Shown: positions 2 to 11,951 of the stretch, one piece after another
How the letters are laid out: the number at the start of each line of letters is the position of its first letter
Numbering within the stretch: the stretch's first letter is position 1
Source: Clostridia bacterium
GTDB lineage: Bacteria; Bacillota_A; Clostridia; Christensenellales; Borkfalkiaceae
Assembly: GCA_017621955.1 (NCBI GenBank)
Contig: JAGASB010000062.1
Location: 1 to 13,159 of the forward strand
Direction: 5' to 3'
DNA length: 13,159 bases
Translations under genes and position numbers: made by a program
Notes under the pieces: model-generated
What the model was told of the DNA's origin: nothing
The model's input: only the letters and a program-made list of their open reading frames with translations
The model's database searches: none

Positions 2-400
2 GCAGAAATAATAAGAACTCTAAACGAAGAAAAAATAGATATTATTGTTCTTGCAGGATTTTTATCTATTTTAAGCGAAGATTTCACAAAGCGCTTTTCT
101 AACAGAATAATAAACGTGCATCCGTCGTTAATCCCTAGTTTTTGTGGCGAAGGTTTTTACGGCTTAAAGGTACACGAAGCGGCGTTATTTTACGGCGTAA
201 AGGTAACGGGTGCAACCGTTCACTTTGTAAACGAAGTTGCTGACGGTGGTGAAATTATAATGCAAAAGGCAGTCAGCGTTAAGGACGGCGATACGCCAAG
301 TAAACTTCAAAAAAGAGTTATGGAACAAGCGGAGTGGAAAATTCTTCCCGCAGCGCTTGAAAAAGTTTGTAAAATGGTACTTAAAGGAGAAATTCAATGA
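2..400 (+). CDS. purN: Phosphoribosylglycinamide formyltransferase, C-terminal part (5' end outside window)
   Basis: PurN transfers the formyl group of 10-formyl-tetrahydrofolate to GAR, giving FGAR, the third step of cytosolic de novo purine synthesis. The open frame runs in from the left edge; 132 codons are present of a usual 190-205, so about 70 N-terminal residues, including the substrate phosphate-binding loop, lie outside. Visible are the core strand IDIIVLAGF (residues 12-20 of the fragment), the catalytic Asn and His in INVHPS (N38, H40) and the catalytic Asp in ADGGEI (D81). The loop FCGEGFYG after the active site is, from memory, a form common in clostridial PurN. A GTG at 116 could be taken as a start, but it is the Val of the active-site motif, so it is internal. 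The stop overlaps the next gene by four bases (ATGA), which suggests translational coupling in the purine operon. Confidence 0.95.
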   Translation, partial: AEIIRTLNEEKIDIIVLAGFLSILSEDFTKRFSNRIINVHPSLIPSFCGEGFYGLKVHEAALFYGVKVTGATVHFVNEVADGGEIIMQKAVSVKDGDTPSKLQKRVMEQAEWKILPAALEKVCKMVLKGEIQ

Positions 401-1134
401 GTGTAAAAGGATTGAACACTATTAAAGATTTATTGTCTAAAAACAGTTATCCCGGTAGGGGAATTATCGTAGGCAAAAGCGCAGACGGTAAGAGTGCAAT
501 GATTGCTTACTTCATTATGGGTAGAAGTGAAAATAGCCGTAATCGTATTTTTGAAAGATACGCTGGCGGTATGAGAACAAAGGCGTTTGACGAAAGCAAA
601 CTCACCGACCCAAGTTTAATCATATATAATCCTTATTTAGAATGTAAAAGTAAAAATATAGTTACCAACGGCGACCAAACGGACACAGTTTATAACTATA
701 TAAAAGAACACGGCGACGATGGTTTTTCTTTTGAAAAATCACTTCATACTCGTGAGTTTGAACCAGATAAGCCTAACTTTACACCAAGAATTTCTGCAAT
801 TTTAGATTATGATTTTGCTAAAAAAACATTTAAATATAAAATGTCTATATTAAAGAGCAGTGACGGTGACCCCCAAGTATGCGACAGATATTTTTATAGT
901 TATTCGCCCATTGACTCTCTTGGACACTTTATTCACACTTATGAATGTGACGGCAATCCCATTCCGTCCTTTTACGGTGAACCTGAAAGGGTGACTCTTC
1001 CAAATACAGCAAGTGAACTTGCTGACGTTGTTTGGGAAAACTTAAATAAAGACAACAAGGTTTCTTTGTTTGTGCGTGTTGTTCCGCTTGATGGAAGCAC
1101 CCCCGAAGAAATTATCATTAACAAGAATAAATAG
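397..1134 (+). CDS. purO: PurO-like IMP cyclohydrolase
   Basis: The 245-residue product resembles the PurO-type IMP cyclohydrolase family (Pfam IMP_cyclohyd), which closes the ring of FAICAR to give IMP, the last step of purine synthesis. The recognisable part is the N-terminal stretch with YPGRGIIVGKSADGKSA (about residues 18-34), followed by AYFIMGRSENSRNRIF (about 37-52), then NPYLE and TNGDQTD further on. The first biochemically characterised members are archaeal; the bacterial branch is assigned by homology and by position. Here position is strong support: the following purH encodes only the transformylase half and lacks the usual IMP cyclohydrolase domain, so this gene fills the missing activity. 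The start ATG overlaps the purN stop (ATGA) and is preceded by AAAGGAGA ending about 6 bases upstream. No signal peptide or membrane segment is seen. The family is fairly sure; the exact activity is inferred. Confidence 0.86.
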   Translation: MSVKGLNTIKDLLSKNSYPGRGIIVGKSADGKSAMIAYFIMGRSENSRNRIFERYAGGMRTKAFDESKLTDPSLIIYNPYLECKSKNIVTNGDQTDTVYNYIKEHGDDGFSFEKSLHTREFEPDKPNFTPRISAILDYDFAKKTFKYKMSILKSSDGDPQVCDRYFYSYSPIDSLGHFIHTYECDGNPIPSFYGEPERVTLPNTASELADVVWENLNKDNKVSLFVRVVPLDGSTPEEIIINKNK

Positions 1135-1145
1135 GAGAAATCAAA

Positions 1146-2333
1146 ATGCAGGAATTAGAACTTAAATACGGCTGTAACCCCAACCAAAAGCCGTCTAGAA
1201 TTTATATGGCAAACGGTCAAGAATTGCCCGTTACAATTTTGAACGGTAAACCAGGATATATAAACTTTCTTGATGCGTTTAACTCGTGGCAACTTGTTAA
1301 AGAACTTAAAGAAGCAGTAGGCAAACCGTGTGCAACGTCATTTAAGCACGTTAGTCCCGCAGGTGCAGCAGTTGGTGAAAAACTTTCGGACGTAGAAAAA
1401 AAAGCGTGCTTTGTAGACGATATAGTAGGGCTTGACGATTCGCCTATGGCTTGCGCATACGCAAGGGCAAGGGGTACGGACAGAATGAGTTCGTTCGGCG
1501 ATTGGATTGCGCTTTCAGACGAATGTGATGAAACTACCGCATTGATTATTAAAAGAGAAGTTTCGGACGGTGTAATCGCACCATCTTATTCACCAAAAGC
1601 ACTTGAAATATTAAAGGCAAAGAGAAACGGAACGTACAACGTTGTTCAAATAGACCCTAACTACGTTCCCGAAGAAAAGGAAAGAAAACAAGTTTTTGGC
1701 GTAACCTTTGAACAGGGCAGAAACAACTTTAAGATTGATAGGGAACTTGTTACAAACAAAATTGTTACGGCAAACAAAAATCTTCCCGAAAGTGCAATTC
1801 AAGATATGATAGTTGCATTAATCACTTTAAAATATACTCAGTCAAATTCGGTATGCTTTGCGCATAACGGTCAAGCAATAGGCGTAGGCGCAGGTCAGCA
1901 GTCAAGAATACACTGCACCCGCCTTGCTGGAAGTAAAGCGGACAATTGGTTCTTGCGTCAGTGCGATAAAGTGCTTAATCTTCCTTTCCTTCCTACGCTT
2001 GGTAGACCGGACAGAAATAACGTTATAGATATTTATATCTCTGACGAATGTGAAGATTTGTTAGTTGACGGCGTATGGCAAAAATATTTTACTGAAAAGC
2101 CGTCGTTATTTACAAAGGAAGATAAGCGTGCAGTGCTTTCAAAGGTAACGGGCGTAACGCTTGGTTCAGATGCGTTCTTCCCGTTTAGTGACAATATTGA
2201 ACGTGCAGCAAAAAGTGGTGTAAGTTATATTGCAGAACCGGGTGGTTCAGTTCGTGACGACCTAGTAATTAAGGCTTGTGATGATAGAAATATGGTTATG
2301 TCGTTTACGGGCATGCGCCTTTTCCACCATTAA
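1146..2333 (+). CDS. purH: AICAR transformylase, stand-alone (PurH C-terminal type)
   Basis: This enzyme formylates AICAR with 10-formyl-tetrahydrofolate to give FAICAR, the penultimate step to IMP. The 395-residue protein starts directly with the transformylase domain (LKYGCNPNQKPS, residues 6-17) and carries the catalytic Lys-His pair in SFKHVSPAGAA (K67, H68), then SNSVCFAHNGQAIGVGAGQQSR near residue 230 and the C-terminal FPFSDNIE and IAEPGGSVRDD segments. Ordinary bifunctional PurH is about 510-530 residues because it has an N-terminal MGS-like IMP cyclohydrolase domain; that domain is absent, and the upstream PurO-like gene presumably replaces it. The ribosome site AGGAGA overlaps the stop codon of the upstream gene and lies 7 bases before the ATG, so the two are probably coupled. 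The product is cytosolic. Its folate cofactor is supplied by Fhs, encoded at the end of the same operon. Confidence 0.95.
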   Translation: MQELELKYGCNPNQKPSRIYMANGQELPVTILNGKPGYINFLDAFNSWQLVKELKEAVGKPCATSFKHVSPAGAAVGEKLSDVEKKACFVDDIVGLDDSPMACAYARARGTDRMSSFGDWIALSDECDETTALIIKREVSDGVIAPSYSPKALEILKAKRNGTYNVVQIDPNYVPEEKERKQVFGVTFEQGRNNFKIDRELVTNKIVTANKNLPESAIQDMIVALITLKYTQSNSVCFAHNGQAIGVGAGQQSRIHCTRLAGSKADNWFLRQCDKVLNLPFLPTLGRPDRNNVIDIYISDECEDLLVDGVWQKYFTEKPSLFTKEDKRAVLSKVTGVTLGSDAFFPFSDNIERAAKSGVSYIAEPGGSVRDDLVIKACDDRNMVMSFTGMRLFHH

Positions 2334-9080: not shown

Positions 9081-10666
9081 TTGAAGAACTACAAATATAA
9101 AGAATATTTAATTAACATTATACCGTGTATAGGCTACGGAATACTTTGTGGCGCACTGACGGGCGCATTCGTATTTTTATTTAAGTTTTTATCAAGCAAA
9201 GCAGAACAACTTTCACGATATATTTACGCTATTGCAAGTACGAACGTTTTATTTATTATGTTGGTGTTTGTTGCGCTTATCGGCTTTGCTATCTTGATGC
9301 GGTTTTTACACAAAAAAGTGCCCGAAGTTAAGGGCGGTGGAATTCCCCGTAGCGAAGGCGTATTAAGGGGAATGTTATCGTTTAGGTGGCTAAGAACACT
9401 TATCGGCACTTTCGTAGGCAGTATGATAGGCTTTTTGTGTGGGCTTCCACTTGGTTGTGAAGGTCCTGCCGTGCTTATGGGAACGGCGATAGGTTCAGCG
9501 TGCGTTAAGTTTTCAAAAAAGCAGTCGGCTTGGGGTAGATATATAATGTCCGGTGGTGCAGGGGCAGGCTTTGCCGTAGCAACGGGCGCTCCACTATCGG
9601 GCATACTATTTACGCTTGAAGAAGTGCATAAACGTTTTACACCTATACTTACTATCGCAGTTTCAGTATCGGTTGTGTCGGCAACATTTATAAGTAGGTT
9701 GCTTTGCACGTCTTTTAATATTGATTATGCGTTTATCAACTTATCTATGCTTGCCGAATTTGAACTTTCGCAAGTAGGATATTTACTGTTGCTTGGCGTG
9801 CTTTTGGCGCTTGCTGTCGGTGCGTTTGATTGGGCAATATCTCTTATAGGAAAATTTACTAAAAAATATAAAAGGACACTAACGCCATTAGTAAAACTAA
9901 TAACGGTTTTTGTTATAACGGGCATACTTGGTTTTACACTTTCGGGCGCACTGTATAGTGGACATCACGAAATTATTGAAACGGTAAAAGGTAACAAAAT
10001 TTTAGCAACGGTAGTGGTTTTATTTGTCGTAAGGTTTATTATAATGATGTTTGTTGCGGATAGTGGTGTTACGGGCGGAATATTCCTACCAACGCTTGCA
10101 ATAGGTGCGTTAATCGGTGCGGTGTTTTCAGAACTTCTAATTTTAATGGGTATGCCAAGGCAGTTATATTCTACGGTAGTAATGCTTAGTATGTGTGCGT
10201 TTATAGGTGGAACTTTGCGTGCACCCTTGACGGCAACGGTGTTATTTATAGAACTTTCAGGGCAGTTTACAAACCTTTTTACGTTGCTCTTGTTGTATTC
10301 ACAGTAACCATAATTACTGAAATTTTAAACAGAACGCCATTTTACGATAGAGTTCTTAAAAATATGGAAGAACACGAACATCAAGGCAAGGTCTATTCTA
10401 CAAGTTGTTTTAAACTTACTGTTTCGCACGGTGCGTTTGCTATCGGTAAAGCGGTAAGGGATATTATGTGGCCACAGTCTGCGGTAGTGCTTAACGTAAA
10501 ACACGCTAACGATAGAATTCAAGAAGTTGAAAATGAGGGCGAAAAGAAACTTTATGCAGAAGATATGGTTATCGTTAGGGCAAAGTACGATGATAAAGAA
10601 CGACTTAAAACGCTTTTATACGACATTGTTGGAAACGATTTTGAAATAACCGATTATACACTATAA
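9081..10666 (+). pseudogene. ClC-type chloride/proton exchanger with C-terminal TrkA-C-like domain, frameshifted
   Basis: ClC exchangers move chloride against protons across the cell membrane. The first frame (9081-10307) shows the filter motif KGGGIPRSEG (G85-P89; Gly86 where E. coli ClC-ec1 has Ser107), GCEGPAVLMG with gating Glu E127, PLSGILFTLEEVHKRF with the proton-pathway Glu pair E180/E181, and TGGIFLPTLAIGA (from 331). Many hydrophobic helices span the chain. At the T run 10276-10280 homology continues in the minus-one frame (Y at 10280): a last helix YVALVVFTVTIITEI, PFYDRVL with the Tyr at 10343 that matches ClC-ec1 Tyr445, and a C-terminal domain like TrkA-C (LYAEDMVIVRA). One extra T would restore 528 residues. 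As it stands, frame one ends at TAA 10305-10307 with 408 residues. The TTG start at 9081 has AAGGA 10 bases upstream. Real mutation or sequencing error cannot be told apart here. No clear promoter was seen after the preceding terminator. Confidence 0.92.
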
Positions 10667-10673
10667 AACAACA

Positions 10674-10699
10674 ATTCCCACGGTTGCCACCGTGGGAAT
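10674..10699 (-). terminator. Terminator of the minus-strand RNA, facing the ClC gene
   Basis: A 10-bp perfect stem (10674-10683 with 10690-10699, arm ATTCCCACGG on the plus strand) closes a 6-base loop. On the minus strand it is followed by TGTTGTTTTAT, a good U-rich tail. On the plus strand the tail (ATTTATCT) is weaker, but the hairpin begins 7 bases after the ClC stop, so it may stop transcription from both sides. Confidence 0.85.
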
Positions 10700-10784
10700 A
10701 TTTATCTATCATATTCAGTTTTAATTGCACCCTATATAATTTTTAGGATACCCGACTAACTTTAAGAAAATTAAACTTTTTATC

Positions 10785-10803
10785 CGTCGCCTCCTTTACG
10801 ACG
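10785..10803 (-). other. Hairpin with a Shine-Dalgarno octamer in its loop
   Basis: On the minus strand a 5-bp stem CGTCG/CGACG (10803-10799 with 10789-10785, extendable by a U-G pair) holds the 9-base loop TAAAGGAGG. AAAGGAGG is a full match to the anti-Shine-Dalgarno end of 16S rRNA in Firmicutes. No ATG, GTG or TTG follows at translation distance, so it does not serve a gene here. It sits at the centre of the candidate RNA. Confidence 0.6.
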
Positions 10804-10939
10804 ACATTATAACTTAAATCGTATCCTACTTAACTATACACGGTGCAAACTTAGATATTTCCTCAATACTGTTCATTGGTCTGCACCCCCTAAATAAAGA
10901 TTTCCTCTATTTCACTCCTTATCTATATTTTCTGGCTTT

Positions 10940-10968
10940 ATTGTAACACGGATTCTGTGTTTTGTCAA
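10940..10968 (-). promoter_or_regulatory. Sigma-A promoter for the minus-strand RNA
   Basis: Read on the minus strand, TTGACA (10968-10963) and TACAAT (10945-10940) are separated by 17 bases: a consensus -35 box and a one-mismatch -10 box at ideal spacing. The expected start is near 10933. The nearest minus-strand feature downstream is the candidate RNA; no real gene on that strand follows before its terminator. Confidence 0.8.
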
Positions 10969-11013
10969 TATGTTTTTTAAAAATTTTGTTGAGAAAATTT
11001 ACTTAAAACAGTA

Positions 11014-11075: not shown

Positions 11076-11951
11076 ATGAAAGGTTTTATAATTATAAATC
11101 CGTTTTTGGTGCCACAAGAAAGTGTTTATCAAGCGGAAAGGCTAAAAAGCGAATTTGAAAATAAAGGAGTGTCGGTTGAAATAATTTCCGATGCTTTTTT
11201 GCGTGCTGAATTAGAATGTAAGTTAAGGTCAGATTTAAGTAGTGCCGACTTTATCATTTATTTAGATAAAGATAAATATCAATCACAAATACTAACTAAA
11301 CTTTCAGTAAGGCTATTTAATAGTCACGAAGCGATAAGGTTATGCGACGACAAGGCGGAAACTTATATTGCGCTATCTAACGTAGGTATTAACTTACCTA
11401 AAACAATTTTTGGTGCACTTTGCTACAATAAAGACTTATCTATTAAAGAAGAGTGGGCAGATAAAATTATTGACAGTTTAGGGCTTCCCGTTATCGTTAA
11501 GGAAAGTTTTGGCTCTATGGGAAAGGGTGTTTATAAAGCGGACGATAAAGAGAGCCTTTTAAGTATAATGGAAAAGGTTAAATTAAAACCGCACCTGTTT
11601 CAGCAGTATATAAGTAAAAAAGTGGGCGTAGACGTGCGTGTTATAGTAATAGGCGGGAAAGCCGTCTGTGCTATGGAAAGAGTAAATGAAAGCGATTTCC
11701 GTTCTAACGTAGCAAGGGGTGGAAGTGGTGTTAAAGTTGAACTTTGTCCCGAATTTAAGTCGGTTGCTGAAAAGTGTGCGCAAGTGCTTAATCTTGATTA
11801 TTGTGGTGTGGACTTGCTTTATGGGGAAAATAACGAACCTATCGTTTGCGAAGTCAACTCAAACGCTTTTATAGGTGGAATAGAAAGTGCAACGGGCTTT
11901 AACGTTGCAAAAGCATACTGTGAATATATACTTAACGAACTAAGTAAATAA
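11076..11951 (+). CDS. RimK-like ATP-grasp ligase, substrate unknown
   Basis: The 291-residue product belongs to the ATP-grasp superfamily and most resembles RimK-type ligases, which use ATP to join an amino acid, often glutamate, to a carboxyl group on a peptide, protein or cofactor. The N-terminal third (about 1-95) is the divergent pre-ATP-grasp domain. The ATP-binding core shows VIVKESFGSMGKGV (139-152, with K142 and the Gly-rich loop), the segment VDVRVIVIGGKAVCAMER, the RimK-like RSNVARGGSG, and the metal-binding end CEVNSNAFIGGIE (E259, N261). No signal peptide or membrane segment is seen, so it should be cytosolic. It has its own strong promoter and terminator and no partner gene, so context does not reveal the substrate. 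The ribosome site is weak: there is no GGAG-type sequence within 15 bases of the ATG. LysX-like or other peptide-ligase roles remain possible. Confidence 0.82.
   Translation: MKGFIIINPFLVPQESVYQAERLKSEFENKGVSVEIISDAFLRAELECKLRSDLSSADFIIYLDKDKYQSQILTKLSVRLFNSHEAIRLCDDKAETYIALSNVGINLPKTIFGALCYNKDLSIKEEWADKIIDSLGLPVIVKESFGSMGKGVYKADDKESLLSIMEKVKLKPHLFQQYISKKVGVDVRVIVIGGKAVCAMERVNESDFRSNVARGGSGVKVELCPEFKSVAEKCAQVLNLDYCGVDLLYGENNEPIVCEVNSNAFIGGIESATGFNVAKAYCEYILNELSK

Follow-up and report, generated by a model that had tools for sequence, protein, structure and literature searches.

Organization of the RNA locus

The window, by which we mean the whole 13,159-nucleotide stretch of Clostridia DNA that was analysed, carries on its minus strand a candidate RNA gene, one of uncultured gut Clostridia, divergent from a gene for a RimK-like ATP-grasp ligase. 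The features that we assign to this locus are as follows.

10973..10987, minus: A/T tract AAAATTTTTAAAAAA upstream of the -35 element; tract alike in 7 aligned sequences
10940..10968, minus: promoter TTGACA-17-TACAAT, score 11/12; TTGACA kept in 7 aligned sequences
10933-10664 (about), minus: candidate RNA gene, predicted start to terminator, ~260 nt
10915..10920, minus: 5′ Shine-Dalgarno-like AAGGAG without an assigned start codon, from the sequence alignment
10877..10890, minus: segment A, the Shine-Dalgarno sequence GGGGGTGCAGACCA; predicted to pair with segment B
10826..10876, minus: mini-ORF MNSIEEISKFAPCIVK, 16 codons, stop codon TAG, from ORF reading and relatives
10821..10850, minus: segment B, from the middle of the ORF to just beyond its stop codon; partner either A or C
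10786..10805, minus: hairpin H, stem GUCGUC/GGCGAC, loop GUAAAGGA, from energy folding and covariation
10725..10751, minus: segment C, forming the 3′ side of the long rod; partner segment B
10712..10722, minus: 3′ motif AAAACTGAATA, same or similar in relatives
10664..10699, minus: intrinsic terminator (11-bp hairpin, 10699-10674) and T-rich tail
11076..11951, plus: RimK-like ATP-grasp ligase gene, divergent neighbour (TIGR00768, 196 bits vs a cut-off of 143)

The original prediction had described a minus-strand TTGACA-17-TACAAT promoter and a strong U-tailed terminator hairpin framing ~270 nt with no plausible gene. Both signals are present, the promoter at 10968-10940 with its 11/12 score and the hairpin with its T-rich tail. 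The position of the promoter predicts a transcription start at ~10933, and the A/T tract upstream of it presumably resembles an UP element. Terminator-like sites in the region exceeded expectation (2 found vs 0.4 expected), and promoter-like sites were at chance number (4 found vs 3.4 expected); this chance level also covers a plus-strand promoter-like site at 10684-10712 that bears on the question of an antisense antitoxin. To judge from the DNA, the gene would be transcribed, and probably strongly. The AAGGAG near the predicted 5′ end is kept in a 5-sequence alignment and lost in L006 and L001.

The absence of a plausible gene was not borne out, as a strong Shine-Dalgarno sequence and a conserved 16-codon mini-ORF lie at 10890-10826 on the minus strand. 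A reading frame conserved across the RNA had been named as a finding that would speak against a structured RNA; the conserved frame exists but spans just 51 of the ~260 nt.

Two observations concern other genes of the window. A ClC-type chloride channel gene is represented by overlapping plus-strand frames (9081-10307 and 10193-10666) that correspond to a single frame in L018, so that either an assembly error or a broken gene may account for the split. In a purine cluster at 397-2333 (plus), the one standard bifunctional enzyme is replaced by two separate proteins encoded side by side, one IMP cyclohydrolase-like (PF07826) and the other of AICARFT type (PF01808).

Type-1 relatives and their neighbours

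RNAs of the window's kind, here called type 1, were collected with covariance models. A first model (R1), built from 5 sequences, was scanned against 398 family genomes, 19 of which matched at E<=0.01; 15 were kept, and L028-L031 were rejected by eye. A second model (R2), built from 17 sequences, identified type 1 in 17/44 genus genomes, 16 of them at E below 1e-7 and one (G386) at 0.032, the last match lying in the usual place beside the ATP-grasp gene. One more locus was recognized by eye (L052, in genome G385), giving 18 of the 44. Additional weak covariance-model matches were left out, and the R2 rows L068, L069, L073 and L076-L078 were dropped by eye. When R2 was applied to 396 genomes sampled from the order, 3 matched, all already known from the genus. 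The named relatives are metagenome-assembled genomes (MAGs) of Clostridia, several from goat or sheep gut.

The RNA divergently adjoins the RimK-like ATP-grasp gene in all 17 model-found genus loci. Eight loci were found the other way round, via the divergent ATP-grasp protein, and six of them have the RNA upstream of that gene; it was not seen in the 500 bases upstream in L007 and L008. The ATP-grasp gene occurs in 41/44 genus genomes and is therefore commoner than the RNA. On the 3′ side the neighbour varies (fhs, ClC or unrelated ORFs, named by eye or tblastn), and in the window, as in 9/9 loci from L017 to L025, the terminator is followed by a convergent gene. The RNA therefore has no gene downstream that it could regulate in cis, and an attenuator or leader RNA was rejected for the same reason. 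The free-standing structured RNA of the original prediction, with its predicted promoter and terminator, draws support from sequence conservation, from covariation and from the exchange of one neighbour, and its conservation as a gene is well supported by these sequence comparisons.

A short ORF with conserved start, frame and length

Inspection of the type-1 sequences revealed that the ORF is opened by a unit of the form GGRGG..NACC/NUCC-N-AUG, with GUG replacing AUG in L052. Peptide, complementarity, prefix-folding and z-score analyses were carried out on 18 type-1 sequences, leaving aside L075, a 19th sequence with an ORF of 20 codons. The ORF is 14-23 codons long in 18/18 sequences, compared with 3/18 for the frame +2 control; in frame +1, ATGA mostly places a stop right at the start. 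Relatives thus keep the start, the frame and the approximate length of the mini-ORF. Spacing between the AUG and an ATATC-type motif varies (15, 18, 21 or 27 nt) and is a multiple of three in 13/13 sequences with the motif at the aligned place; the motif is lacking in four type-1 sequences, and L004 has ATATT elsewhere.

Many type-1 peptides begin MNSxxEIS and differ beyond, and all four third bases occur in the Ser codon that follows GAAATA. By eye the 14-23-residue peptides look hydrophilic, against the small hydrophobic membrane peptide of a type I toxin mRNA. A second ORF over hairpin H was considered and rejected, its frame relation differing between the window and L003. We infer that the mini-ORF is translated and that it has been conserved because a short stretch of translation, and not a protein product, is under selection.

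Covarying helices and competing pairings

Three helices had been proposed for the window RNA, and the complementary strands sit exactly as stated (TTGCACC/GGTGCAA, TAGGATAC/GTATCCTA and CGTCG/CGACG). The two long helices correspond to the pairing of segments B and C. For the small 5-bp hairpin (10803-10785) the complementarity is real, but folding and covariation favour another register, hairpin H, in which GUCGUC (10805-10800) pairs with GGCGAC (10791-10786) around the loop GUAAAGGA. Energy folding predicted the window RNA to be more stable than shuffled sequence (z of -5.3 with the terminator and -4.7 without it). In 5/18 type-1 sequences z was above -2, suggesting that the structure is only moderately stable there.

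Changes on both sides of a pair were counted in 42 cells of the 17-sequence alignment, compared with 14.9 ± 3.2 after shuffling (0/500 shuffles reached 42), and the signal was lost on sliding the partner strand; having been fitted to the structure, this alignment is biased in its favour. Seven sequences of one clade, aligned with MAFFT, gave 14 two-sided changes vs 5.7 ± 1.7 (0/500 shuffles reached 14). Two helices covary. One is hairpin H, with two-sided changes at 6/6 pairs in the 17-sequence alignment and a loop that hardly varies, being GUAAAGAA in the majority of the relatives with this hairpin; L006 and L001 lack H in this form and have something different at its place. The other is A:B, formed by the Shine-Dalgarno segment and the middle of the ORF, with five pairs showing two-sided changes. 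B:C has a single pair with two-sided changes in the MAFFT alignment of the seven-sequence clade.

B:C could not be aligned across all relatives and was therefore tested in each sequence against dinucleotide shuffles. Complementarity reached p<=0.05 in 17/18 type-1 sequences, with 0.053 in the other. A:B reached p<0.05 in 12/18 by the same kind of shuffle, failing in L004, L017, L021, L023, L024 and L025. Since the sequences share ancestry, the combined p-values of these complementarity tests (5e-21 and 1e-11) exaggerate their independence. For the four sequences of the window's clade, in which the 3′ strand of B:C fails to align, RNAalifold predicted A:B and H and not B:C.

As segment B is common to both, A:B and B:C are mutually exclusive. 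Prefix folding predicted fewer expected A:B pairs in a 250-nt transcript than in a short one in 16/18 sequences; in L004 and L052 they rise. Openness of the Shine-Dalgarno sequence increased with transcript length in 13/18 sequences and fell in the window, L002, L003, L023 and L064. Release of the Shine-Dalgarno sequence on exchange of A:B for B:C was thus rejected, the result being mixed and contrary in the window itself.

Probable relatives with tandem units

Weak R2 matches L067, L070, L071, L072 and L074, in genus genomes in which no type 1 was found, define a second type. Here ORF1 has 8-9 codons and ORF2 2-12 codons, and the four loci not cut by a contig end have a third unit that is nearly identical to the type-1 unit apart from AUC in place of AUG. 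AUC occupies the same unit position in L084-L086, and AUU does so in L087. A stem, GCUUGCU/AGCAAGC, is the equivalent of B:C, with two-sided changes at three pairs among six sequences. In 3/5 second-type genus loci (L067, L070 and L072) similar ORFs, recognized by eye as coding for a glutamate-5-kinase-like amino acid kinase, lie upstream on the same strand.

A sequence-only model of the second-type loci (R3) matched 47/398 family genomes at E<=0.01, and 30 of 48 places were examined. We judged 27 of these 30 loci to be relatives by eye and three (L096, L103 and L107) to be unrelated. Outside the genus set lie 20 of the 27; the others are five second-type genus loci and two of type 1. L109 is doubtful by eye. 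L110, a further relative, comes from a genome that is not among the family's 398, and of 11 R3 matches in a class-wide sample only L142 and L143 look real. At the R3 match in L148 there are three 51-nt tandem repeats, readable either as Shine-Dalgarno/AUG-UUC-CGG-stop units or as a frame-shifted repeat protein, so that this may be a coding repeat. The wider relatives probably belong with the type-1 RNA, a kinship that rests partly on judgement by eye.

These probable relatives appear to be stand-alone RNAs, mostly with two to four tandem Shine-Dalgarno/AUG units, many of 2-3 codons; because R3 models the units, their presence in R3 loci is circular. Two features outside R3 were therefore informative, the 3′ motif AACUGAAUA and a strong promoter, one or other of which is common to about half of the wider relatives. 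Among the 23 loci outside the genus set, three rejected loci included, the motif lies downstream in 12 (4/460 shuffles, letters shuffled singly) and a promoter scoring at least 11/12 lies upstream in 13 (1/460 shuffles). Of these 12 loci, 7 have a recognizable terminator after the motif. Among the longer RNAs, several (L090-L095 for example) finish with CAACTGAATT or lack the 3′ motif. When 842 kb of fetched DNA was scanned with a regular expression for at least two units within 170 nt, which forces CC and the start-codon set, 29 clusters emerged, all but one within the RNA candidates; this count covers both strands and overlapping loci, with L079-L083 repeating L067-L074 and some places counted twice. 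Neighbouring genes differ between groups of wider relatives and are shared by close relatives.

NAC codons (Asn, Tyr and His) are read by queuosine-type tRNAs. NAC is the second codon in 48/62 units, compared with 11/154 long ORFs with a Shine-Dalgarno sequence, an excess that could be search bias given that the search models favour AAC and UAC. This count, and that of self-sequestration of the Shine-Dalgarno sequence in tandem units, used 19 of 25 loci, six near relatives being left out. Self-sequestration was rejected, with 1/43 units at p<0.05, and gating by A:B is therefore at best a type-1 feature.

The 3′ motif seemed to us to resemble rRNA-spacer sequence. An origin there was rejected, since TTGAAAACTGAATA with one mismatch occurred near control frequency in 18 genomes and 0/20 examined places adjoined an rRNA recognized by Rfam; this rejection is weak because MAGs often lack rRNA operons. 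A phage or plasmid origin was also set aside, as no similar DNA was found, and two exact motif patterns had no match in viral contigs.

A proposed role for translation initiation

Comparison of the sequences supports a conserved RNA gene with covarying helices, a mini-ORF of conserved start, frame and length and, in type 1 only, competing pairings. From these we infer action in trans and gating. Our model, to which we give slightly less than even credence, is that of a stand-alone ribosome-engaging RNA that would act in trans and whose fold would depend on initiation at the mini-ORF. Ribosomes would bind the strong Shine-Dalgarno sequence and translate the tiny ORF. A:B would be expected to form first during transcription, and the full-length RNA would favour B:C. 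With a ribosome on the ORF neither pairing could form, and the fold, together with any trans contacts of the 3′ half or of hairpin H, would therefore depend on initiation. Initiation would keep segment B unpaired; otherwise A:B or B:C would form. Where units occur in tandem, initiation could be registered by several tiny ORFs, and a near-cognate start might render some of the units responsive to the fidelity of initiation.

The strongest rival to this model is a ribosome sink or sensor without the refolding step. More generally, the RNA might act on the translation machinery through strong Shine-Dalgarno sequences with tiny or defective ORFs, by which 30S subunits, initiator tRNA or the fidelity of initiation would be captured or sensed, an idea that we regard as doubtful and nevertheless take seriously. 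In its favour, the ORF has <=3 codons in 29/53 AUG/ACG units of the probable relatives, and the last unit before the 3′ domain starts with AUC (7) or AUU (1) in 8/8 second-type loci read. CsrA, the alternative binder of GGA repeats, was found in 0/33 genomes by a search for PF02599 whose control detected it in 3/14 known genomes, and we rejected a CsrA sponge on this basis. However, the frame control for <=3 codons was mixed (5/61 in frame +2 and 25/61 in frame +1, where ATGA is a built-in stop), type 1 has a single unit with a longer ORF, and the kinship of the relatives was judged partly by eye.

It is unlikely that the RNA is instead a messenger that encodes a small protein of 14-23 residues and ends in a long structured 3′ region. 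Such a protein would fit the retention of start, frame and length, the recurrent MNSxxEIS N-terminus and the variation at third codon positions, but the peptides are not conserved past their first residues and second-type ORFs of 2-3 codons are too short for a protein. Slightly less probable again is that the Shine-Dalgarno and AUG sequences only look like translation signals, the units being binding sites for protein or RNA and the ORFs by-products. Units without AUG (AUC, AUU or ACG) do keep their surrounding sequence, and unit positions +4/+5 (AC) are conserved. Against this stand the in-frame length control in type 1 and the in-frame stop within 18 codons in 61/61 units (25 loci).

Comparison with known RNA classes

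A search of Rfam 15 (4227 families) gave no RNA match at gathering score for the window or for 28 related loci, where a tRNA (in L008) was the only thing matched. In the RNA region the matches up to E 10 numbered nine, all with E above 1. raiA, offered as a candidate class in the original prediction, was not among them, RF03072 matching neither at gathering score nor at E up to 10. The same was true of 6S RNA (RF00013). In 15 type-1 genomes 6S was found in one, below the cut-off (L032 in G354), and these genomes may therefore have no recognizable 6S, although in the control the search detected 6S in just 6/14 known genomes and missed 8/14. tmRNA (RF00023) had no match in the window, and a separate tmRNA scored above the cut-off in 14/15 genomes. 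That the RNA is a divergent representative of a class already known, be it raiA, 6S, tmRNA or some other Rfam family, is highly improbable, as the scarcity of recognizable 6S, its one point in favour, is outweighed by the lack of any Rfam match at gathering score or convincing match at E up to 10 and by the tmRNAs elsewhere.

Dual-function small RNAs such as RNAIII/hld, SR1/SR1P and SgrS/SgrT share with the window RNA a stand-alone unit, a structured RNA and a short ORF behind a strong Shine-Dalgarno sequence. To the extent that sequence can tell, the window RNA has its own promoter and terminator and a short ORF conserved in frame and length; in contrast to these RNAs, its ORF is much shorter, and the wider relatives have tandem tiny ORFs. 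The lambda bar minigene (AUG-AUA-UAA) recalls the 2-3-codon ORFs behind strong Shine-Dalgarno sequences in the wider relatives, whereas here the ORFs form part of a chromosomal RNA, frequently several in a row. rnTrpL/peTrpL of Sinorhizobium is reported to be an attenuator-derived RNA and leader peptide that act in trans (PMC7298713). It resembles the window RNA in its very short peptide ORF, its small structured RNA and a pairing that could compete with the ribosome, and differs in that the window RNA has no downstream operon, the gene past the terminator being convergent where examined. raiA RNA is an abundant, stand-alone RNA of Clostridia of about 210 nt with a compact fold and two pseudoknots (PMC11751092). 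The window RNA, likewise from Clostridia, is comparable in size and also a structured stand-alone RNA, but it has no covariance-model match, carries a Shine-Dalgarno/ORF unit and shows far more sequence variation. In the open-access papers searched (including PMC6429828, PMC11109978 and PMC11751092), as far as these were covered, no such class is described.

Implications

We consider it possible, though on balance improbable, that type 1 and its probable relatives form a widespread chromosomal class of the Clostridia with ribosomes as the ligand, in which one to four Shine-Dalgarno/AUG-NAC mini-ORFs, many of 2-3 codons and some with weak starts (AUC, AUU or ACG), would sense or absorb initiation and switch the fold with no protein needed. 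If this is right, and given the lack of a match among the 4227 Rfam families and in the open-access literature search, they would be an undescribed class of bacterial RNA that blurs the line between mRNA and structured noncoding RNA. A stand-alone RNA without a downstream gene would then have tiny ORFs, in many cases arranged in tandem, as its working parts, and ribosomes as the input of a trans-acting RNA would become a directly testable question.
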